Below are positions 7,842-17,225 of a DNA stretch of 64,000 bases, piece by piece (the stretch's first letter is position 1; every line of letters begins with the position of its first letter). The translations under genes were made by a program, and so were the position numbers. Below the pieces are notes generated by a model. The model was not told where the DNA came from and did not search any database. It saw nothing but the letters and a program-made list of their open reading frames with translations. This DNA comes from Herpetosiphon giganteus (lineage in GTDB: Bacteria > Chloroflexota > Chloroflexia > Chloroflexales > Herpetosiphonaceae). The stretch lies in NCBI RefSeq assembly GCF_016907925.1, contig NZ_JAFBCZ010000016.1, positions 1-64,000 of the forward strand, written 5' to 3'.

Positions 7842-8198
7842 CTATAATGCAGGTGGCACAAAATAATCGTTATCATTGTTTGAGCGTGGCTTATCTAATT
7901 CCGTGCGATATAAACGCAAATGTGGTCGAATCAGACGAATAATATACTGATTGAAACAGAATATAAATATCATTGTTGTTGTAAATTGAATAATTGGCGA
8001 TAATAATAATGAAAAATGAATATTAAATGTAATTAATGTAAATATTCCCATATGGATCGCAAATATGGCTAGCAAACCCAACCATAAGCGTGGATTATAA
8101 CGATTAGCTTTAATTGCCCGATAGCGCAAATCAATCTGTTTATGTTTATCAAGCCCTTGCAATTCAGGAACTGCATTATTCGACCAATAAATTTTCAT
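7842..8198 (-). CDS. Small two-helix membrane protein, paralogue of the next gene
   Basis: 118 residues, function unknown. A cytosolic-looking N-terminus ('MKIYWSNNAVPELQG', then 'AIKANRYNPRLWLG') is followed by two hydrophobic segments at about 37-60 and 65-87 and a hydrophilic tail ending 'DYFVPPAL'. The upstream gene encodes a protein with the same plan, so the pair is a tandem duplication. ATG 8198 has AGGAA upstream; the longer frame to 8231 overlaps the previous stop and has no ribosome site. Confidence 0.7.
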   Translation of the reverse strand: MKIYWSNNAVPELQGLDKHKQIDLRYRAIKANRYNPRLWLGLLAIFAIHMGIFTLITFNIHFSLLLSPIIQFTTTMIFIFCFNQYIIRLIRPHLRLYRTELDKPRSNNDNDYFVPPAL

Positions 8199-8227
8199 GG
8201 CGATTCCTGTACTAGAATTGAGATTAA

Positions 8228-8575
8228 TCAAGCATGAGGCACGAAATATTCATTTTTATGCTCAGCCGCATTCTCCTCAAGCTCATAGCGATAGTGGGAT
8301 AAAGTTGGGCGCAGTGCAGCAATAATAATGGCATTACTAATTAAGCCAATAATTCCCCCAGTGATTGCACCCACTAGCATTCCCATCCAAAGGCTATCGA
8401 GCCTTGGAAAAAGTAATATTGCAGTAACGATCCCCACATAGAGCACAGCATAGCCAAGCCAAACCCTTTTATTTTTACGATTTGCTTTTAGCGCTTGTTT
8501 CCATAAAAGGCGCTTTTGTGGTTTAGGGTAGCCATCAAGTTCTGGAATCGAATTGAGTGAAAGATAGAATTTCAT
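8228..8575 (-). CDS. Small two-helix membrane protein, paralogue of the previous gene
   Basis: 115 residues. It shares with its downstream neighbour the motifs 'SIPELDG', 'ALKANRKNKRVWLG', two central membrane segments, 'YRYELEEN' and the terminal 'NEYFVPHA'. The function is unknown. The conserved cytosolic ends suggest they bind something inside the cell, but this is inference. The start at 8575 has AGGAGAG nearby. The 29-nt gap to the next gene indicates one transcript. Confidence 0.7.
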   Translation of the reverse strand: MKFYLSLNSIPELDGYPKPQKRLLWKQALKANRKNKRVWLGYAVLYVGIVTAILLFPRLDSLWMGMLVGAITGGIIGLISNAIIIAALRPTLSHYRYELEENAAEHKNEYFVPHA

Positions 8576-8664
8576 TGCTTCTCTCCTGAGTTGTAGTTCC
8601 ATAAGTATACACAGCGCTATGGTACGAAGCAATTAGCGCGTGGTTGCAATTAGCTTTGTTTTTC

Positions 8665-8685
8665 GATATTGATTTTTTTCAATCT
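8665..8685. promoter_or_regulatory. 21-bp dyad operator candidate, copy 1
   Basis: GATATTGA, five T, TTCAATCT: an inverted repeat (ATTGA...TCAAT) with the same 21-bp length and flanks as copy 2 at 8812-8832, differing at three central positions. The size and A/T-rich dyad resemble ArsR/SmtB-type operators in general form. The binding protein is unknown. Confidence 0.5.
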
Positions 8686-8811
8686 CTATGCTAGGCTAAG
8701 CAGCAACCAAACTTCGCATGCTAGTCAGCACAAGGCTGGCATATTTTTAGCAATCGCTTATCGAAAAAATTCAATTCATCATCATTTTGAGGTGGATTTT
8801 TGTTTCGCTTA

Positions 8812-8832
8812 GATATTGAAAATTTTCAATCT
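8812..8832. promoter_or_regulatory. 21-bp dyad operator candidate, copy 2
   Basis: Contains the perfect 16-bp palindrome ATTGAAAATTTTCAAT flanked by GAT and CT. It lies 22 nt before the start codon of the first operon gene, just ahead of its ribosome site (AGGAGG at about 8842), a position suited to repression. Copy 1 lies 147 bp upstream. Confidence 0.55.
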
Positions 8833-8854
8833 AGCGTTATTCAGGAGGTTTTGG

Positions 8855-10159
8855 ATGGATTTTGACCATTTACCAGTGGCCGTGATTGGGTCGGGGCCTG
8901 TTGGCTTGGCGGCGGCAGCACATTTGGTGGCGCGCAATCAAACGCCGCTGCTTTTCGAAGCTGGCCCACGGGTGGCCGATTCGGTGCAAAAATGGGGCCA
9001 TGTTCGGCTCTTCTCGCCTTGGGAATTCAACCTTGATCCGCTGGCTGAAACGCTTTTGACTGCCACTGGTTGGCAAGCACCCGATTTAAGCCACTTTCCA
9101 ACTGGAGCTGAATTGGTGCGCGATTATTTAGCGCCATTGGCTCAGTTGCCCCAAATTGAATCGCAGATTCGGCTCAATAGCAAAGTTGTGGCAATTACGC
9201 GCTTGGGTTTGGATAAATTGAAAAATGCAGGGCGGGCAACTACGCCATTTGTGCTAACAATTGAAACTGCTGGCGAGAGCTATCAAATTCATGCCAAAGC
9301 AGTGATTGATGCCTCGGGAACCTATCGCAGCCCAAATCCATTGGGTGCTGCTGGTGTGCCAGCCTTGGGCGAAGCAAATGCCTCAGCCCAGATTTACTAT
9401 GGGATTCCCGATATTTTGGGCAGCGAGCAGGCGCGCTATGCTAATCGTTCGGTGGCGGTGGTCGGTAGTGGCCATTCGGCCTTTAATGCGCTGCTCGATT
9501 TGGCTAGCCTCGCTGAACAAGCGTCGGCAACGACGATTACCTGGATTATGCGGCGCGAACAGCTTGATGCTGCTTTGTATGGCGGCGGAGCAAACGATCA
9601 GTTGGTTCAGCGCGGGGTTTTAGGTGCTCAGGTTGAGCAACTGCTGGCGAGTGGACGGCTTAAGCTGGTTACTGGTTTTCGCATTGATGCAATTAGCCAG
9701 ATTGGTCAACAACTGTGTTTGCACGCAGCCGAGCAGCAACTGACTGGCTTTGATCAAGTGATTGCCACAACTGGCTTCCGCCCCGATTTGGCTATGCTCA
9801 GCGAAGTACGTTTGGAGCTTGATTCAGCAGTCGAAAGCCCACGGGTTTTGGCTCCCTTGATTGATCCAAATGCGCATAGTTGTGGCACGGTGCGCCCCCA
9901 TGGCGCTGAAGAATTACGCCATCCTGAGCCAAATTTCTACATTGTGGGCATGAAAAGCTATGGTCGTGCGCCAACATTTTTGATGCGGACAGGCTATGAG
10001 CAAGTGCGCTCGGTTGTCGCGGCAATTGTTGGCGATTGGCAAGCTGCCCGCGATGTGCAGTTGGTCTTGCCTGAAACGGGAGTTTGTAAAACTCAATTTG
10101 GTGGAGAGGCATGCTGTGGCACAACCTCAGCCCGCAGCGAGATTCTGTTGCAGTTGTAG
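8855..10159 (+). CDS. FAD/NAD(P)-dependent oxidoreductase with C-terminal cysteine tail
   Basis: 434 residues. N-terminal dinucleotide fold 'VAVIGSGPVGLAAAAHL', a second one 'VAVVGSGHSAFNALLDL', and 'QVIATTGFRPDL' before the last domain: the layout of flavin monooxygenase/thioredoxin-reductase-like flavoproteins. The last 25 residues hold a single Cys ('TGVCKT') and a vicinal pair ('GEACCGTT'), suggesting a thiol or metal(loid)-binding tail; this is inference. ATG 8855 has AGGAGG upstream; an earlier TTG at 8816 lies inside the operator. First gene of a four-gene operon with an MFS exporter, a flavin monooxygenase and a sigma factor. Confidence 0.75.
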   Translation: MDFDHLPVAVIGSGPVGLAAAAHLVARNQTPLLFEAGPRVADSVQKWGHVRLFSPWEFNLDPLAETLLTATGWQAPDLSHFPTGAELVRDYLAPLAQLPQIESQIRLNSKVVAITRLGLDKLKNAGRATTPFVLTIETAGESYQIHAKAVIDASGTYRSPNPLGAAGVPALGEANASAQIYYGIPDILGSEQARYANRSVAVVGSGHSAFNALLDLASLAEQASATTITWIMRREQLDAALYGGGANDQLVQRGVLGAQVEQLLASGRLKLVTGFRIDAISQIGQQLCLHAAEQQLTGFDQVIATTGFRPDLAMLSEVRLELDSAVESPRVLAPLIDPNAHSCGTVRPHGAEELRHPEPNFYIVGMKSYGRAPTFLMRTGYEQVRSVVAAIVGDWQAARDVQLVLPETGVCKTQFGGEACCGTTSARSEILLQL

Positions 10160-10199
10160 AATGGCCGCTTAGCAAGCAATTGTAAAAAAGGATTTGGTT

Positions 10200-11426
10200 A
10201 TGCGGCAAAGCCCATTTTATGGCTGGTGGATTGTGAGCACGCTAGGATTTACCGAAATGACTTCGTGGGGCGTGATTTACTACGCATTTAGCGTGCTTTT
10301 GGCTCCGATGCAGCAGGAGTTGGGTTGGTCGCAGGCCCATTTTACTGGTGGATTTTCGTTAGCGCTGTTTATTTCAGGGATTGTTGCCTTGCCAATTGGG
10401 CGCTGGCTCGATCAGCACGGCGCACGTGGTTTGATGACGCTTGGCTCGTGTTTGGCAACGGTTTTGGTTGTGGCATGGGCCAATGTCCAAACGCTCTTGG
10501 CTTGGTATCTGATTTGGGCTGGCTTGGGGGTGGCGATGGCGGCAATTTTATATGAGCCAGCATTTGCCGTCGTCGCAACATGGTTTCAGCGCAAACGCCA
10601 ACATGCACTCACCATTTTGACGGTTGGTGGTGGTTTGGCGAGCGTTGTGTATGTGCCCTTAATCACGCGTTTGCTCAGCACAATGGCTTGGCGCGAAGTC
10701 TTGCTTTGGCTAGCTGGTGGCTTGGCGATCCTCACGATTCCGCTTCATGGCTTGGTGCTACGAGCCAAACCTGCCGACTTGGGCTTGTTGCCCGATGGAG
10801 AGCCGTTGCCTGTTGTTGCCACTGCGTCTACGCCGCCGATTCAACCATCGATGTCGTTGAGCAAGGCTCTGCGCGTTGGCGCATTTTGGTGGTTGGCGTT
10901 GGCATTTGGCCTGACCACGATGGCAACATTTACGCTTGGCGTGCATTTGATCTCGGCGATTAAAGCCCAAGGCTATGCGCCAGAAATTCAGGCCTTGGCT
11001 GTTGCAATCTTGGGTGGTTCGCAAATTCCCAGCCGGATTTTGATTGGCAGCATAGGACGGCGTTTGCCTCAAGCACAATTAGCGTGGATGTTGTGTTTGG
11101 TGCAAAGCTTGGCTTTTGCAATCTTCTTATCTGTGCCAAGCGTTGCGGGCTTAATGCTCTTTGCCTGCTTGTTTGGCGCTGGTTCTGGTGCGTTGACTCC
11201 AACTCGTGCAGCCTTGGTGGCCGATGTATTTGGCAGCGCCCAATATGCCAGCATCAGCGGAGCTTTAGCGTTGTTGACGACAACTGCGCGGGCGTTGGCC
11301 CCGGTTTTGGCCAGCTTGTTGGTGGCGCTGCTGCATAGTTATCAACCACTTTTTGGCTTATTGTTGCTGATGTGTCTAATCAGCGCAGCAGCAATTTACT
11401 TCATTCGAGGTGCAAGCAATGCCTAA
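10200..11426 (+). CDS. MFS transporter, 12 membrane segments
   Basis: 408 residues. It opens with 'FYGWWIVSTLGFTEMTSWGVIYYAF', the pattern of the monocarboxylate/oxalate-formate branch of the major facilitator superfamily, and shows the loop motif 'GRWLDQHGARGLM'. About 12 hydrophobic segments. The substrate cannot be read from sequence; between two flavoproteins and a stress-type sigma factor an export role is plausible. ATG 10200 (AAGGA 8 nt upstream) is preferred to the TTG at 10194. The end overlaps the next start by 8 nt. Confidence 0.8.
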   Translation: MRQSPFYGWWIVSTLGFTEMTSWGVIYYAFSVLLAPMQQELGWSQAHFTGGFSLALFISGIVALPIGRWLDQHGARGLMTLGSCLATVLVVAWANVQTLLAWYLIWAGLGVAMAAILYEPAFAVVATWFQRKRQHALTILTVGGGLASVVYVPLITRLLSTMAWREVLLWLAGGLAILTIPLHGLVLRAKPADLGLLPDGEPLPVVATASTPPIQPSMSLSKALRVGAFWWLALAFGLTTMATFTLGVHLISAIKAQGYAPEIQALAVAILGGSQIPSRILIGSIGRRLPQAQLAWMLCLVQSLAFAIFLSVPSVAGLMLFACLFGAGSGALTPTRAALVADVFGSAQYASISGALALLTTTARALAPVLASLLVALLHSYQPLFGLLLLMCLISAAAIYFIRGASNA

Positions 11427-12513
11427 GCAAACGATTGTAATTGGCGCAGGTCAGGCTGGCCTCGCTGCTGGCTATTGGCTGCAACGAGCCAAGGTGCCGT
11501 TTCAAATTCTCGAGGCCCAGCCGCTGGTTGGTGGCTCCTGGCCAGCCTATTATGCCAGTTTGAAGCTCTTTTCGCCTGCTCGATTTTCGAGTTTACCGGG
11601 CCTTGATTTTCCTGCGCCTGCTGCTAGCTATCCCGACCGCGATGCTGTGGTTGCCTATTTGCGGCGTTATGCTGAGCATTTTAAGTTGCCAATTCAAACC
11701 AACACACCAATTCGCACGATCGAACGCCAGCAAGCTGGTTTTCGGCTGCTAACGAACGATGGGCGGGTTTTTCAAGCTGGCCAGCTTATTGCGGCAACTG
11801 GAGCATTTTCGCGGCCTTTTATGCCTCAATTGCCTGATCAAGGTTTATTTCAAGGCCAGATTTTACATAGTGCTAGCTATCGCACACCACGTGATTTTGC
11901 TGGCAAACGGGTGATTGTGGTGGGTGCTGGCAATTCGGCGATTCAAATTGCGCTTGAGCTTGCCGAGGTTGCCAACGTAACCCTTGCCACCCGCCAGCCA
12001 ATTCGCTTTCAAGCCCAAACGATTGCCGGACGCGATCTGCATTGGTGGTGGTGGCTGACGGGCTTTGATCGCTTGTCGCTCGATAGCCGTTTGGGCCGCT
12101 GGATTCAGCAACGCACTCAGGGAATTGTCCTCGATACTGGTCTGTATAACAGAAAGATTAGTCAAAATCAACCGCAGCGTCGAGCCATGTTCGAGCGTTT
12201 TACTGAAACTGGGATTGTTTGGGCCGCTGGGCAGCCCGAGCCAGTTGATGTCGTGTTATTTGCAACTGGCTATCGGCCAGCTTTAGGCTACCTGCAAAAC
12301 CTCGATGCCTTGGATGAAGCTGGCTTGCCATTGCACAAGGCTGGAGTTAGCACCACGGTTGATAATCTGTATTATGTTGGCTTGGAGCAACAATATAATT
12401 TCGCGTCGGCAACCTTGCGCGGCGTTGGCGCTGATGCAGCCCGAGTTGTGCGCCAGATTCAAGCACACGCACATCAACCAACTCGTTGTTGTCGTTGGGC
12501 GGTGTGGCAATGA
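11419..12513 (+). CDS. Flavin-containing monooxygenase (ArsO/CzcO-like)
   Basis: 364 residues. FAD-binding 'IVIGAGQAGLAAGYWLQ' at the N-terminus, the 'PLVGGSWPAYYASLKLFSPA' substrate-side segment, 'GAFSRPFMP', a second dinucleotide motif 'VIVVGAGNSAIQIALEL', and 'VVLFATGYRPAL'. This is the single-component monooxygenase pattern, often labelled ArsO/CzcO when next to metal(loid) genes. The substrate is not determined. Start ATG 11419 (GAGG 9 nt upstream) overlaps the MFS gene; the stop overlaps the sigma gene in ATGA, so the operon is translationally coupled. Confidence 0.78.
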   Translation: MPKQTIVIGAGQAGLAAGYWLQRAKVPFQILEAQPLVGGSWPAYYASLKLFSPARFSSLPGLDFPAPAASYPDRDAVVAYLRRYAEHFKLPIQTNTPIRTIERQQAGFRLLTNDGRVFQAGQLIAATGAFSRPFMPQLPDQGLFQGQILHSASYRTPRDFAGKRVIVVGAGNSAIQIALELAEVANVTLATRQPIRFQAQTIAGRDLHWWWWLTGFDRLSLDSRLGRWIQQRTQGIVLDTGLYNRKISQNQPQRRAMFERFTETGIVWAAGQPEPVDVVLFATGYRPALGYLQNLDALDEAGLPLHKAGVSTTVDNLYYVGLEQQYNFASATLRGVGADAARVVRQIQAHAHQPTRCCRWAVWQ

Positions 12514-13061
12514 ACCAGCTCGATTTGAATCAGCTTTGGTTGAATTTAGCCGAGCCACTCCGTCGATTTCTCGGCGCACGTTTGGCTGATCCGACTGCGG
12601 TCGAAGATTTGTTGCAAGATATTTTTCTGGCTGCCTATCTCAATCGCGAGCAACTCCACGACCCTGAGCGTAGTCGGGCTTGGTTGTGGCAAATTGCCCG
12701 TCGCAAACTCATCGATCGCTATCGTAGCCGTCGCGAAACCAGCGAGATTGATGAAAATTTGACGGCTGAACCGCAACAAACACCGCCAATTTTAGCTGAC
12801 TTTGAGCAGTGTGTGCAGCACATGTTGGCCCGTTTGCCGGCCCAAGATCGCTTGGTTTTGCAACGCACAGCCTTTGAAGGCATCAGTCAACAGGCCTTGA
12901 GCCTCGAATTGGGCTTGTCATTTTCGGGAACAAAATCGCGGGTTCAGCGCGCACGCCAGAAATTACGCCAGCTGTTCGATCAATGTTGTGCGATTGAGCG
13001 CGATGCTGATGGCCATGTGTTGGATTGTTATCCACAGCCGCAATCAATTCAACTCGTTTAA
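12510..13061 (+). CDS. ECF-type sigma factor, SigZ-like
   Basis: 183 residues. Region 2 spans about 13-75 ('AVEDLLQDIFLAAYLNREQL', 'AWLWQIARRKLIDRYRSR') and region 4 about 100-160 ('LPAQDRLVLQRTAFEGISQQ', 'SGTKSRVQRARQKLRQLF'). After region 4 comes 'CCAIERDADGHVLDC', a cysteine-bearing tail also seen in SigZ-labelled proteins. No anti-sigma gene is adjacent, so activity may be controlled by expression or by the tail itself; this is inference. It starts inside the stop of the monooxygenase gene (ATGA). Confidence 0.82.
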   Translation: MNQLDLNQLWLNLAEPLRRFLGARLADPTAVEDLLQDIFLAAYLNREQLHDPERSRAWLWQIARRKLIDRYRSRRETSEIDENLTAEPQQTPPILADFEQCVQHMLARLPAQDRLVLQRTAFEGISQQALSLELGLSFSGTKSRVQRARQKLRQLFDQCCAIERDADGHVLDCYPQPQSIQLV

Positions 13062-13422
13062 GCTGCGTCCTTTTGCTAATTGACCGTCTTTAATAGTACA
13101 ACGCATGTGAATGACTCAAAGCGCATGCTGCAACACTATTTATAGTAACGCCGCAGAACACCCCGCCCCAAGACCCATGCTGTTGGTTCCCCGCGCGGGA
13201 TGCATGCGTGCCAGTTCTGACGAAGAGCAATTAACGAGAGCAAGAGCAAGCTACCCCGTGACTATATAATCATGCGTTATTCGGTTATTTTGACTGCGTG
13301 AAACATACGCTATTCTATACAGTCAAAAAAACGACTAGTATCGCGTATAATAGTCGTCGCTCTGCCTTCCTTGGTTCGGTGTAGCCGCGCCCTCGGCTGT
13401 TTGTAGCAGCGTGAGGGCATTC
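13062..13422. other. Gene-free spacer between the sigma gene and the HTH gene
   Basis: No convincing ORF. It contains a GC-rich inverted piece (CCCCGCGCGGG, about 13190), the near-perfect dyad ACGACTAGTAT/TATAATAGTCGT at 13331-13357, and a two-part stem (GCCCTC..GCTG / CAGC..GAGGGC, about 13390-13418) directly downstream of the HTH gene. It may be the remnant or edge of a mobile element whose other end lies beyond tnpB. Confidence 0.45.
13331..13357. promoter_or_regulatory. Inverted repeat near the HTH gene
   Basis: ACGACTAGTAT-CG-CG-TATAATAGTCGT: 10 of 11 arm positions match. It lies downstream of the small HTH gene and 270 bp after the sigma gene. It could be a recombination or operator site; there is no direct evidence for either. 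Confidence 0.35.
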
Positions 13423-13623
13423 TCATTTGTTATCACCTACTTCTTTTTGCGATTCCTTTCTTGCCTCCTCAAGGAATCGCTGAACCTCCTCAATTGGGAT
13501 ACGATGGGCGCGTCCAAACTTATACGATTTGACCTTGCCTTGCTTAATCCATAGCCGAATGGTCTGTTCTGACAGCTTTAGATATTCGGCTAATTCCTCA
13601 GTTGTGTAAAATTCCGCTGACAT
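13423..13623 (-). CDS. Small excisionase-type HTH DNA-binding protein
   Basis: 66 residues that are almost entirely a MerR/excisionase-like winged helix: 'FYTTEELAEYLKLSEQTIRL', then 'KSYKFGRAHRIPIEEVQRFL'. Proteins of this type bind DNA as Xis factors or small regulators. The same domain begins the IS607 serine recombinase, but no recombinase follows here. ATG 13623 (AAGGGG upstream) is preferred to ATG 13659. It is divergent from tnpB across an AT-rich spacer and may be a relic of the same mobile region. Confidence 0.7.
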   Translation of the reverse strand: MSAEFYTTEELAEYLKLSEQTIRLWIKQGKVKSYKFGRAHRIPIEEVQRFLEEARKESQKEVGDNK

Positions 13624-13942
13624 GTCTGCCCCTTGATGAGATATGGTTTTTATATTCATAGTCTATTATATAGTAGCTCTCTAGTCAATACTTGTATATA
13701 ATTATTTATTGACAAATATATATAATAGTATATAATTTTGATACAAATAAATTTGTTGGGTGCTAAGAACATTCTACAATTCCGGATGGGTTTCGCACGT
13801 TCCCCACGCTGAAACGCTGTCATTGTTGGGGTCGTGGGCTTTGGACTGATGGATGCCGGGTACCCGCTGGGTGACGGTTCGGCGGGGACGGTTTCTGCCC
13901 AAACCATGGCCATGGATAGCGCCAATCAAAAGGAGCCTGATC

Positions 13943-15100
13943 ATGTCAACGCTGACCCGTTGCTATAAATATCGCCTATACCCTACCGCTGATCAACAAA
14001 CCACCTTGGTCCAGTGGGCGGGTTGCCGACGCTTCGTCTGGAATTGGGCATTGCACTGCAAGCAAACCCACTACCAAATAACGGGTCAACGACTGAGCTA
14101 TCAACGGCTTGCGGCGATGTTGGTTGACCTGAAACGCCAACCGAAAACAGCCTTTTTGCGCGATTGCCATTCGCAACCGTTGCAACAAAGCCTGATGGAT
14201 CTAGAAACCGCCTTCACCAACTTTTTTGCCAAACGCGCCAAGTACCCGCGATTCAAAGCCCGCAAAATCACCCCTCACAGCCTACGCTTCCCGCAAGGCG
14301 TAATCGTCGTGGATGAACGTACCATCAGCGTACCAAAAATCGGACTAATGCAGGCGATCATTCATCGCCCACTCATGGGAACAGCGAAGGGCGCAACGAT
14401 CAAGCACGATCCAACGGGCGCATGGTGGGTTGTCTTCGTCTGTCATATTGAACGCCCTGATGGTCAACCAACGACTGATTGTCCTGTGGGCATTGATGTG
14501 GGACTTGAATCCTTTACCACGCTGTCAACGGGTGAGAAAACCGCGCCGCCGAAGTTCTATCGCCGCAGCCAGAAGAAACTTGCCTGCGCTCAGCGCAAAC
14601 TCTTCCGCGCTCAAAAGAGGAGCAACAATCGCTTGAAAGCTCGTAAGCGCGTTGCTAAAATTCACCAGAAAATCAGCAACCAACGCGCCGATTGGCTGCA
14701 TAAGCATGCGTTGGGGATTGTTCAACGATTCGACGTGGTGTGCATCGAAGACCTGAATATCAAAGGCCTTGTGAAAACCAAGCTGGCTAAATCATTCAGT
14801 GATGCCGCCCTCAGTACCTTCATGCAGATGTTAATAGATAAGGCAGCATGGCACGGACGGCGGGTTATTAAGGTGGGACGTTTCTACGCCTCATCAAAGA
14901 CCTGCCATCACTGCAAAACCAAAACTGCCCTGATGCTGGCAGATCGCGTGTGGACATGCCCCACCTGTGGCGCGATCCATGATCGCGATGTCAACGCCGC
15001 GATCAACATGTTGCACGAAGGAATACGCCTGCTTGCCGTTGGGACGACGGAAAGCCAAAACGCTGCCGGAGATGGTGTAAATCCAGCGAAATGCTGGTAG
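13943..15100 (+). CDS. tnpB: TnpB (IS200/IS605-type, RNA-guided nuclease family)
   Basis: 385 residues, full length. RuvC-like residues are intact: D185 in 'PVGIDVGLES', E269 in 'VVCIEDLNIKGL', D349 in 'HDRDVNAAINML'. The zinc ribbon has C321/C324 and C339/C342. TnpB proteins of this class are guided by an RNA from the element's right end and cut DNA. No tnpA transposase is in the window. ATG 13943 has AAGGAG upstream; an earlier in-frame start at 13853 would add 30 unsupported residues. The 280-bp stretch upstream of this start is AT-rich (13660-13760), then of ordinary composition. The element interrupts the interval between the sigma operon and the Cys-rich peptide. Confidence 0.9.
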   Translation: MSTLTRCYKYRLYPTADQQTTLVQWAGCRRFVWNWALHCKQTHYQITGQRLSYQRLAAMLVDLKRQPKTAFLRDCHSQPLQQSLMDLETAFTNFFAKRAKYPRFKARKITPHSLRFPQGVIVVDERTISVPKIGLMQAIIHRPLMGTAKGATIKHDPTGAWWVVFVCHIERPDGQPTTDCPVGIDVGLESFTTLSTGEKTAPPKFYRRSQKKLACAQRKLFRAQKRSNNRLKARKRVAKIHQKISNQRADWLHKHALGIVQRFDVVCIEDLNIKGLVKTKLAKSFSDAALSTFMQMLIDKAAWHGRRVIKVGRFYASSKTCHHCKTKTALMLADRVWTCPTCGAIHDRDVNAAINMLHEGIRLLAVGTTESQNAAGDGVNPAKCW

Positions 15101-15152
15101 CCATCGTTGAAGGCAGAAGCCACGCCCCTCGTGGGCGTGGTAGTTCACTTAC
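15101..15152 (+). mobile_element. Right end of the TnpB element / omega-RNA 3' hairpin
   Basis: Just after the tnpB stop: GAAGGCAGAAG, then CCACGCCC-CTCGT-GGGCGTGG and TAGTTCAC, the usual right-end hairpin and terminus of IS200/IS605-type elements. In known TnpB systems the guide RNA scaffold ends here and the guide is copied from the flanking DNA. That flank is TTACAGGAGGCCGCTC, the ribosome site of the 28-residue peptide. The left end was not identified. Confidence 0.65.
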
Positions 15153-15164
15153 AGGAGGCCGCTC

Positions 15165-15251
15165 ATGGCAACGAACGAACCCACCCAATCGAACGACGAC
15201 TGCTGCTCAGCAGAAGAACAAGCAACTTGCTGCTCAGGCGATTGCTGCTAA
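15165..15251 (+). CDS. 28-residue peptide with three Cys-Cys pairs
   Basis: A short ORF with a strong ribosome site (ACAGGAGG, 6 nt before ATG). The second half reads CC-SAEEQAT-CC-SGD-CC, then TAA: six of the last sixteen residues are cysteine, in three vicinal pairs. Vicinal thiols bind arsenite, zinc, cadmium or copper, so a metal(loid)-binding or carrier role is plausible but inferred. A bidirectional terminator follows 20 nt later. Without the TnpB insertion it would lie just beyond the flavoprotein/MFS/sigma operon, whose first enzyme also ends with a CCG tail. I do not recognise a named family. Confidence 0.6.
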   Translation: MATNEPTQSNDDCCSAEEQATCCSGDCC

Positions 15252-15270
15252 ATTTTTGTTGACATAAAAG

Positions 15271-15306
15271 AAAAGGCCTTGACAGGATAGTATGTCAAGG
15301 CCTTTT
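15271..15306. terminator. Bidirectional terminator
   Basis: Perfect 14-bp stem AAAAGGCCTTGACA / TGTCAAGGCCTTTT with an 8-nt loop, A-rich on one side and T-rich on the other. It serves the Cys-rich peptide (+) and the cellulase gene (-). Confidence 0.9.
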
Positions 15307-15323
15307 ACTATTTAACCCATTAC

Positions 15324-17225
15324 TTAGGGGTTGGTTGGAGCTGGGTTTGCTTGTTGATAATAGGTGGTGATGCTTGTGCCAGTAGCCGCGCCACCAAGCG
15401 GAATTTGATGATCAAGACTGACAAATTTACCATTGCGATCAGCCCATAATGCTGGTTTGAGCAAGGCATATTTGGCTTCATCCCACGTGGCCCAATCGTA
15501 GCCCAAAAGGCCACCAGTATCGCCAGAGTTGGGGTTAAGCACCCAGAACGTATGGTGCAAATAGTGCTCTTTGATCAAATCGCGCAGCGCTTTCATCCAT
15601 TGTTCGTTTGCGCCGCCATCCAAAAAGCCACCCCATTCACCAATAAACAAAGGTGCGATATTCTCTTCATGAATAAAGAACCAGTTAGGCTGCCAAACAT
15701 CGTTGTAAAGCGTTTCTTTGGTAAAACTAGGGTAGAACCATGATTGATTGAACACCAGCGGGCCATAATCGTGCGGCGAATAGACCAATTGATCTTGGTT
15801 GGCTCCAAGATTGACTGGATAATCGCGCACGCCGCGTAAATTACCGCCCCACCAGGTGAAATAGTAATCGTTTTTATTATTTGAGCTGTAATTTGCTCCT
15901 GCTTTGGGGTAAACCTCGTTGCCCTCGCACAACACCAACACATTGGGGTTGATAGCCAGAATGCGTTTGCTGGCAGTTTCGCAGACATATTTCCAATTAT
16001 TGATGTCGCTTGAATTATCCCATTTGGCAAATTGGCCGCTGCTTTGATTATCGTGAGCAGTGCCGTGTGGCTCGTTCTTAATATCCATTGCGATAACCGT
16101 ATCATCGTTTTTGTAACGATCGGTAATCCATTCCCAGGCCTGATAAAACTGCTCGCTGGTGATTGAGCCTTTGTACCACAATGGGGCATAATGGCCAGCG
16201 TTATCAGCCTCAGCACTGTGCACATCGATCATCACTTTGATGCCAAATTGCTTCGAAAGCAGCACAAAACGATCGAAAATTTGCAACGAGGTCAAGCCTT
16301 CTAACTCAGGGTTGGCATAGGTGTTGACATTGGGTGTTTTGAAAATCCCAGCCTTCCACTCCAAAATTAATTCGGTTGAAATTGGCACGCGAATAATATT
16401 CAAGCCACGCTGGGCGATGCTTTGTAGCATTGTGGTTAAGTTTGCCGACCACAACCCATGAAAAACCCGTTCAGTTGCATTAAACCCAAACCAATTGATT
16501 CCGGTTAGCCAAACGGGGCGGCCTGCACTATCAACAATTTGATTGCCGTTGGTATGCAACCAATCGTCGGTGTTGCTATTGCCGATTGGTGTGCTGGTGG
16601 CCGTTGCAATGCTGGTTGGAATAGCGGTGTTGGTTGGCCGTGGCGTGCTGGTGGCTGTTGCAATGTTGGTTGGAATTGCCGTATTGGTTGGTCGTGGCGT
16701 GCCAGTTAATGTGGGAATTGTGGTATTTGGTGGGGTTGTTGGGGTACTCGTTGCAGGCCGAGTGGTTGGAACGAGGGTGTTGGTTGCAGTTGGATTGGGC
16801 TGATCGTCGCCACAATTGACTCCATTGAGCTTAAACGCCGTTGGCAATGCATTAGTACCACTATACCTCGCTTGAAAGCCAAAACTAGCGGTACCATTGC
16901 TTGGCAAACTAGCGGCCCATGCTGGATTCGCCACACTCACACTAGGCCCAGTTTGGCTGAGCGTGCCATTCCAGAGATTAGTAATTGTCTGATTGCCAGC
17001 AAACCCCCAGCTTAGTTGCCAATTATTGAGACCGATTCCAAGATTCTTAACGCTTACATTGGCGGTAAAGCCAGTCTCCCATTGATTGGAAATTGTGTAC
17101 GTGACCTCACAAACTGCGGCTGCGGCGGTGGGCTTAGTGTGTGCAGGTTGCCCAGCTAGAACCAGCGCTACGAGGCCGCCAAGCATGGCCAGCCGACTGC
17201 GAAACGAACGGTGTTTCTGTGACAT
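15324..17225 (-). CDS. Secreted cellulase: CBM2 plus GH5 endoglucanase
   Basis: 633 residues. Signal peptide (basic start, then '[14 protein letters not shown]'), a CBM2 cellulose-binding module at about 40-135 ('[17 protein letters not shown]', ending 'NGVNCG'), a Thr/Pro linker with two '[10 protein letters not shown]' repeats (to about 220), and a GH5 catalytic domain to the end. The acid/base glutamate is in 'DIKNEPHG', the nucleophile in 'FIGEWGG'. It should cut internal beta-1,4 links of cellulose outside the cell. ATG 17225 has AAGGGA upstream. Unlike the other surface proteins here it lacks the 'YLPxA' tail. Confidence 0.92.

Follow-up and report, generated by a model that had tools for sequence, protein, structure and literature searches.

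Which promoters does a sigma factor serve when its gene closes an operon of redox enzymes and an exporter, and what governs that operon in turn? The question is raised by a locus of the soil bacterium Herpetosiphon giganteus (Chloroflexota) lying in the window analysed here, a stretch of 64,000 nucleotides (contig NZ_JAFBCZ010000016.1, positions 1 to 64,000). Between 8855 and 13061, four same-strand open reading frames (ORFs) encode a flavoprotein that we call FP1, a major facilitator superfamily (MFS) exporter, an ArsO-like flavin monooxygenase and a SigZ-like sigma factor of the extracytoplasmic function (ECF) type. We propose that they probably form an ArsR-regulated arsenical-detoxification operon, the last gene of which would encode an ECF sigma factor that itself controls a very small regulon. 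The arrangement given by the sequence-only reading of this locus was confirmed from the ORF coordinates: FP1 and the MFS gene are 40 nt apart, the MFS and ArsO-like genes overlap by 8 nt, and the ArsO-like gene and sigZ by 4 nt (ATGA). Not reported in that reading were the microprotein gene, the promoter motif that follows sigZ and the three operators 5' of FP1, all described below. The order FP1-MFS-ArsO-sigZ is kept in five of the six Herpetosiphon genomes; in the sixth (G004), FP1-MFS-ArsO is deleted (L113, 9953-11360) and the three operators, sigZ, the motif and the microprotein remain. Because of this conservation, and of a deletion that spares operators and sigZ, the four-gene order is, judged from these genomes, more than chance.

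The first layer of control appears to be an ArsR repressor. The palindrome ATTGA-N6-TCAAT occurs in three copies 5' of the operon. Within the window alone, and with one mismatch allowed, seven matches were found for 3.8 expected, which is not significant; a chance origin was rejected on genome-wide and cross-genome counts. The exact form ATTGAAW4TTCAAT has two sites in the 6.16 Mb genome, one upstream of the operon and one on another contig (C2), where it separates arsR from a GNAT gene. When nine genomes of the family were scanned with ATTGAW6TCAAT, the six Herpetosiphon genomes contained 25 sites, of which 24 are at the FP1 operon or at arsR-arsN2(-arsM), and the reversed pattern gave none in the same nine genomes. 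The arsR promoter is TTGAAT-N17-TATAGT and that of the operon has, at the TTGATT-N17 spacing, a -10 of TAGGCT in the window strain and TATGCT in its relatives; the palindrome lies over the -35 at both. A simple sigma70 promoter scan did not report TTGATT-N17-TAGGCT, and TAGGCT is a weak -10. The C2 regulator (L065, 6825-7187) is an ArsR/SmtB metalloregulator (NF033788, 84.9 bits for a cut-off of 55) with an N-terminal CC that aligns with the CC of the solved ArsR structure 6j0e and a CVC in the recognition region, and the GNAT gene is ArsN2-like (121 bits, under the cut-off of 125). The second locus reads arsR-operator-arsN2-operator-arsM in five sister species, and in a sister genus (G007) arsR (65% identical), operator, FP1, MFS and ArsO are adjacent in cis. 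Given the operators common to both loci and this cis arrangement, the operon is most simply viewed as a putative member of an ArsR regulon whose repressor acts in trans from contig C2. That this ArsR would control both arsR-arsN2(-arsM) and FP1-MFS-ArsO-sigZ via ATTGA-N6-TCAAT is well supported by sequence. No arsM match was found in the window's genome (G000). The arsM matches of two other Herpetosiphon genomes, G004 (L150) and G005 (L154), contain an in-frame TAG, and it looks as if arsenic methylation were going lost in the subclade of these three genomes.

The second layer would be the sigma factor itself. Its Pfam domains are Sigma70_r2 and r4_2 only, followed by a C-terminal CC; the tail cysteines are C159, C160 and C173 (CC-x12-C), with a lone C101 in the sigma2-sigma4 linker. 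We call it SigZ-like because it scores 161.6 bits against TIGR02959, under the cut-off of 168.65 (a homologue in G356 reaches 204.6). No anti-sigma gene directly follows sigZ: downstream of it lie, in this order, a promoter-like motif, an insert of the IS200/IS605 type and an ORF of 28 codons with Cys pairs. A sigma factor with a cysteine tail and no anti-sigma gene had been announced by the sequence-only reading, and this holds.

Among 400 genomes of the phylum, 35 had a SigZ match (41 matches in total). At 26 of 35 loci, a count which excludes the six Herpetosiphon and includes the weak matches L146-L148, a gene for ArsM, ArsN1, ArsN2, ArsC, FP1 or ArsO lies within ~5 kb; one locus (L115 in G377) reads ArsO, MarR, ArsN1, FP1, MFS, SigZ, ArsM. 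None of 20 control loci had ars genes within ~5 kb; these are other ECF sigma loci, hand-picked from search matches in five genomes of a family of the same phylum (f24) that we presume, from its large, sigma-rich genomes, to be Ktedonobacteria. A CC tail, taken as typical of SigZ from the alignment made here, is present in 32/32 ars-linked and 6/9 unlinked proteins. The three without it (L146-L148) are the weakest matches and are probably not SigZ. At the unlinked locus L124, an ArsP-family permease stands behind a SigZ-type motif.

This motif, TGCGTCYTTT-N11/12-CGTCT, is an ECF-type promoter motif tied to SigZ. In f24, TGCGTCYTTT-N-CGTC is common to the upstream regions of sigZ, arsM and FP1, and its predicted targets there include sigZ, FP1, CCG-repeat proteins of 115-116 aa and an ArsM that carries Cys-pair repeats close to its N-terminus. 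The loose motif was found at 31 of 36 SigZ loci and was absent from the 20 control ECF loci, from 11 Bacillota FP1 loci and from 13 order-relative loci (FP1 or a distant FP1 relative). The strict motif has exactly one site per Herpetosiphon genome (6/6), always just behind sigZ, and none in the sister genus G007. Over the 400 genomes, motif and SigZ occurred together in 29, motif only in 8, SigZ only in 6 and neither in 357 (Fisher p 4.8e-31, a value that overstates independence, the genomes being related). Of the 61 motif sites, 50 have a SigZ match no more than 4 kb away. Among the other eleven, two are at ArsM genes, one of them a fragment, and one each at FP1, at a SigZ fragment and at an ArsC gene that borders a contig end; the remaining six look like background (the reversed pattern has nine matches in the same genomes). 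The SigZ matches without strict motif are in G134, G177 and G237 (weak matches) and in G152, G326 and G361.

The association extends to other phyla, related motifs being present at ars-linked SigZ genes of Actinomycetota, Pseudomonadota and Bacteroidota. SigZ-like genes were detected by tblastn in 361 plasmid records, all with less than 60% identity, and 19 plasmid loci were examined. GCRTCYTTT-N-CGTYT was present in all six proteobacterial ars-linked loci (Citrobacter, Sulfuricella, Ideonella, Klebsiella, Hafnia and Leclercia), either immediately or a short way behind the sigma gene, and followed by acr3, arsD-arsA, a permease or a resistance-nodulation-division (RND) pump; the SigZ tails are here C...CC, not CC...C. 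In Hymenobacter the motif precedes both the sigma gene and a 22-aa CC peptide. Over the 19 loci this pattern was observed 10 times, for 0.04 expected by chance. TGCGTC-N-CGTC stands ahead of a Cys-pair microprotein in 5/5 Rhodococcus plasmid loci and in Nonomuraea. The Rhodococcus peptides align with the 43-aa Herpetosiphon ones as CCS-x-E-x-Q-x-x-CC...EK-x-x-CCG...CGC (in L208 the second pair is RC). On the plasmid of Rhodococcus sp. DMU1 (L205), no ars gene is annotated within 6 kb of SigZ and the microprotein; it looks as though the two could travel on their own.

In Herpetosiphon, the target of the motif would be a Cys-pair microprotein. In the five genomes other than that of the window, a small ORF starts 59-71 nt behind the motif, preceded by a good ribosome-binding site. 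Its product, 31 aa long in two genomes and 43 aa in three, has eight cysteines, mostly in CC pairs. The reading frame, start and ribosome-binding site, conserved in six genomes, support the candidate ORF and fall short of proof. The two small Cys-pair proteins searched matched no Pfam or NCBIfam family. In the window strain the 2.0 kb insert, absent at the matching site of the five other Herpetosiphon genomes, probably weakens or breaks the step from SigZ to the microprotein; its position between SigZ-type promoter and microprotein offers a natural test of their link.

Table 1 Coordinates of the operon, its control sites and the downstream features in the window
Feature	Position	Strand	Sequence	Remarks
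Operator 1	8668..8683	.	ATTGATTTTTTTCAAT	covers the -35 of the sigma70-like promoter TTGATT-N17-TAGGCT
Operator 2	8760..8775	.	ATCGAAAAAATTCAAT	one mismatch; exact in genome G002
Operator 3	8815..8830	.	ATTGAAAATTTTCAAT	between promoter and ribosome-binding site
FP1 flavoprotein	8855..10159	+		434 aa; FAD/NAD(P), YpdA/flavin monooxygenase-like fold; invariant C-terminal LPETGVC...C(C) tail
MFS exporter	10200..11426	+		ATG start; TTG at 10194 a possible alternative; best NCBIfam model ArsK
ArsO-like flavin monooxygenase	11419..12513	+		364 aa; best NCBIfam model ArsO (NF040505)
SigZ-like ECF sigma factor	12510..13061	+		183 aa; C-terminal CC-x12-C
SigZ-type promoter motif	13064..13089	+	TGCGTCCTTTTGCTAATTGACCGTCT	only site in this genome
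Insert, IS200/IS605-type	13144..15148	+		~2.0 kb; TnpB gene 13853-15100; between motif and microprotein ORF
Cys-pair microprotein	15165..15251	+	MATNEPTQSNDDCCSAEEQATCCSGDCC	28 aa; unannotated; beyond the region of the sequence-only reading

As to the mechanism, the sequence comparisons give good support to SigZ recognising TGCGTCYTTT-N11/12-CGTCT and to the sole SigZ-type promoter of Herpetosiphon driving the predicted 28-43 aa microprotein. Elsewhere in the phylum such promoters would drive sigZ, arsM, FP1 and larger Cys-pair proteins; those of Proteobacteria would serve acr3, arsD-arsA, an RND pump or a permease. SigZ might become active once As(III) or methyl-As(III) is bound by three or more thiols of its tail, and the microprotein might act as a thiol sponge or chaperone that sequesters the arsenical. 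If SigZ is activated in this way, synthesis of the microprotein would be confined to conditions in which arsenical is still present once ArsR has been released. We consider it somewhat better than an even chance that these proteins constitute a cross-phylum class of arsenical-responsive ECF sigmas, characterised by an on-board thiol sensor (CC...C, C...CC or CC...CxCC), the promoter code GCRTCYTTT-N11/12-CGTCT and a Cys-pair microprotein as core target in several phyla, acting as a second tier under ArsR.

Several points weigh against these proposals. The motif was first spotted by eye in loci chosen for SigZ, and the association is partly by construction; the fair tests are therefore its whole-genome uniqueness and its presence in other phyla. 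Six of the 19 plasmid loci lack the motif (Priestia, two; Vibrio, two; Photobacterium; Arenibacter), so not every SigZ fits. For both Priestia loci and one of the Vibrio loci the records annotate no ars gene close to SigZ; the second Vibrio record and that of Photobacterium carry no annotation in this region, and the Arenibacter neighbours are permease, thioredoxin-like and NAD(P)H oxidoreductase genes. C173 is restricted to Herpetosiphon (6/32 ars-linked proteins), most others having CxCC or a similar cluster. An ORF of 28-43 codons is short, and binding of arsenic by the microprotein is assumed from its Cys pairs. The window proteins score under the curated cut-offs for ArsO, ArsK and SigZ, as does the genome's ArsN2 copy, and the whole case is drawn from comparing sequences.

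An unlikely alternative is that TGCGTC-N-CGTC functions as an RNA element or is bound by a different regulator, and that SigZ travels with it and has another target. Most ECF factors have an AAC-type -35, from which the half TGCGTCYTTT differs, and the link between SigZ and motif comes from sequence, not biochemistry. Against this, the motif occurs at SigZ loci with differing neighbours, six unlinked ones and DMU1 included, it lies 19-114 nt before start codons, and region 8500-15500 of the window has no Rfam match.

The enzymes bear on which toxin is handled. Two different FAD/NAD(P) enzymes and one MFS exporter, as the sequence-only reading had listed, were recovered by domain and family searches. 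FP1 has no NCBIfam match above cut-off and shows weak YpdA and ArsO similarity. Its predicted model resembles the bacillithiol disulfide reductase YpdA and flavin monooxygenases (Foldseek); model quality is middling (mean predicted local distance difference test score 74; residues 308-356 below 50), so Foldseek backs only the two-dinucleotide-fold class. At the C-terminus, TGVC is followed by C or CC in 13/13 aligned proteins, and C411 and C421 are invariant. Class B flavin monooxygenases carry the fingerprint FxGxxxHxxxY/F, which is present in the ArsO-like protein (FQGQILHSASY); membership of FP1 in this class was rejected, the fingerprint not being seen in its alignment. The ArsO-like protein matches NF040505 over its full length (286 bits, under the cut-off of 425) and the MFS protein the ArsK model NF033733 (159.8 bits, under the cut-off of 400). 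FP1 homologues are found next to ArsR and an MFS gene, with the gene order unchanged, and in Bacillota with ArsR, ArsB, ArsC and ArsN1; plasmid contexts are arsR-FP1-arsK in Ensifer adhaerens and arsN1-FP1-arsD-arsA in Pseudomonas. Judging from their families, FP1 and the ArsO-like enzyme may shift the oxidation state of trivalent (methyl)arsenicals, the product being exported by the MFS protein.

It is improbable that the toxin dealt with is an organic electrophile or a thiol-reactive metal(loid) other than arsenic, and that ars genes adjoin the operon through shared mobility. ArsR/SmtB proteins, MFS pumps and flavoproteins do serve several metals, and SigZ is also found without ars genes; the neighbours, however, are arsenic-specific by model name (ArsM, ArsN1, ArsN2, ArsC, ArsB, Acr3, ArsD-ArsA and ArsH). 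Metalloid detoxification, among the possibilities raised by the sequence-only reading, is strongly supported by the operators in common with arsR-arsN2-arsM and by the ars neighbours of FP1 and SigZ in several phyla. That SigZ itself transcribes the four-gene operon and senses the toxin through its cysteines, the self-contained unit suggested by the same reading, is very unlikely, given that the likely controlling arsR lies elsewhere, that ArsR-type operators and a sigma70-like promoter under one of them stand 5' of the operon, and that no motif does so in any of the six Herpetosiphon genomes, the single site being behind sigZ, although in f24 the motif stands ahead of sigZ, and at times of FP1, so that autoregulation probably exists there.

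Our preferred reading, an ArsR-regulated operon ending in a sigma factor of small regulon, can be compared with known systems. ArsV, a methylarsenite oxidase, and ArsW, a methylarsenate exporter (PMC10080717; cited in PMC9144182 and PMC11719878), are a flavoenzyme and organoarsenical exporter pair, as FP1-MFS and ArsO-MFS appear to be; they were compared by description only, and the portions considered mention no sigma factor or microprotein (PMC10080717). The ars operons with ArsO and ArsK supply the best NCBIfam models of two window genes and, in the Ensifer adhaerens plasmid, a similar arrangement; in the window the scores are under curated cut-offs, arsR is in trans, and sigZ and the microprotein are extra. 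In Myxococcus xanthus, CorE and CorE2 (ECF238) are metal-dependent sigma factors whose C-terminal cysteines are proposed, in the part of the source considered, as an on-board sensor (PMC8999054). The window SigZ is likewise an ECF sigma without anti-sigma and with C-terminal cysteines; unlike them, as described there, it lacks the linker CxC and a cysteine-rich domain of the CorE kind, and has an arsenic context and its own motif (PMC8999054). CorE is the closest working analogy, but its defining cysteine layout is absent from the window SigZ. SigZ of Bacillus subtilis shares the NCBIfam name and is listed without function in the table concerned of PMC10141391; Priestia SigZ keeps the CC tail, but its loci have neither annotated ars genes nor the motif. 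We found no literature link of SigZ to arsenic, and an earlier mention remains possible.

Bacterial arsenic control has been described mainly via ArsR-type repressors. If the proposal is true, the orphan sigma family SigZ gains a function, as a second regulatory layer in ars operons of Chloroflexota, Actinomycetota, Pseudomonadota and Bacteroidota, and a Cys-pair microprotein family too small for automatic annotation is defined. For Herpetosiphon the prediction is exact, one promoter and one target, and cheap to test.

Some further genes were noted. Behind SigZ-type motifs in f24, L136 (6288-6632), L137, L138 and L140 are proteins of 115-116 aa with repeated CCGTTSQ-like units and 12 cysteines; L136, the one searched, matched no family. 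AhpD/carboxymuconolactone-decarboxylase-like CxxC proteins occur behind the motif (L131, 4549-4923; L132, 4965-5342) or near SigZ (L207). Inspection by eye also showed, on the minus strand of the insert in the window, a short helix-turn-helix-like ORF near 13430-13625. Finally, two neighbouring small membrane-protein-like genes on the minus strand (7842-8632), without Pfam or NCBIfam match, stay beside the operon in G004.

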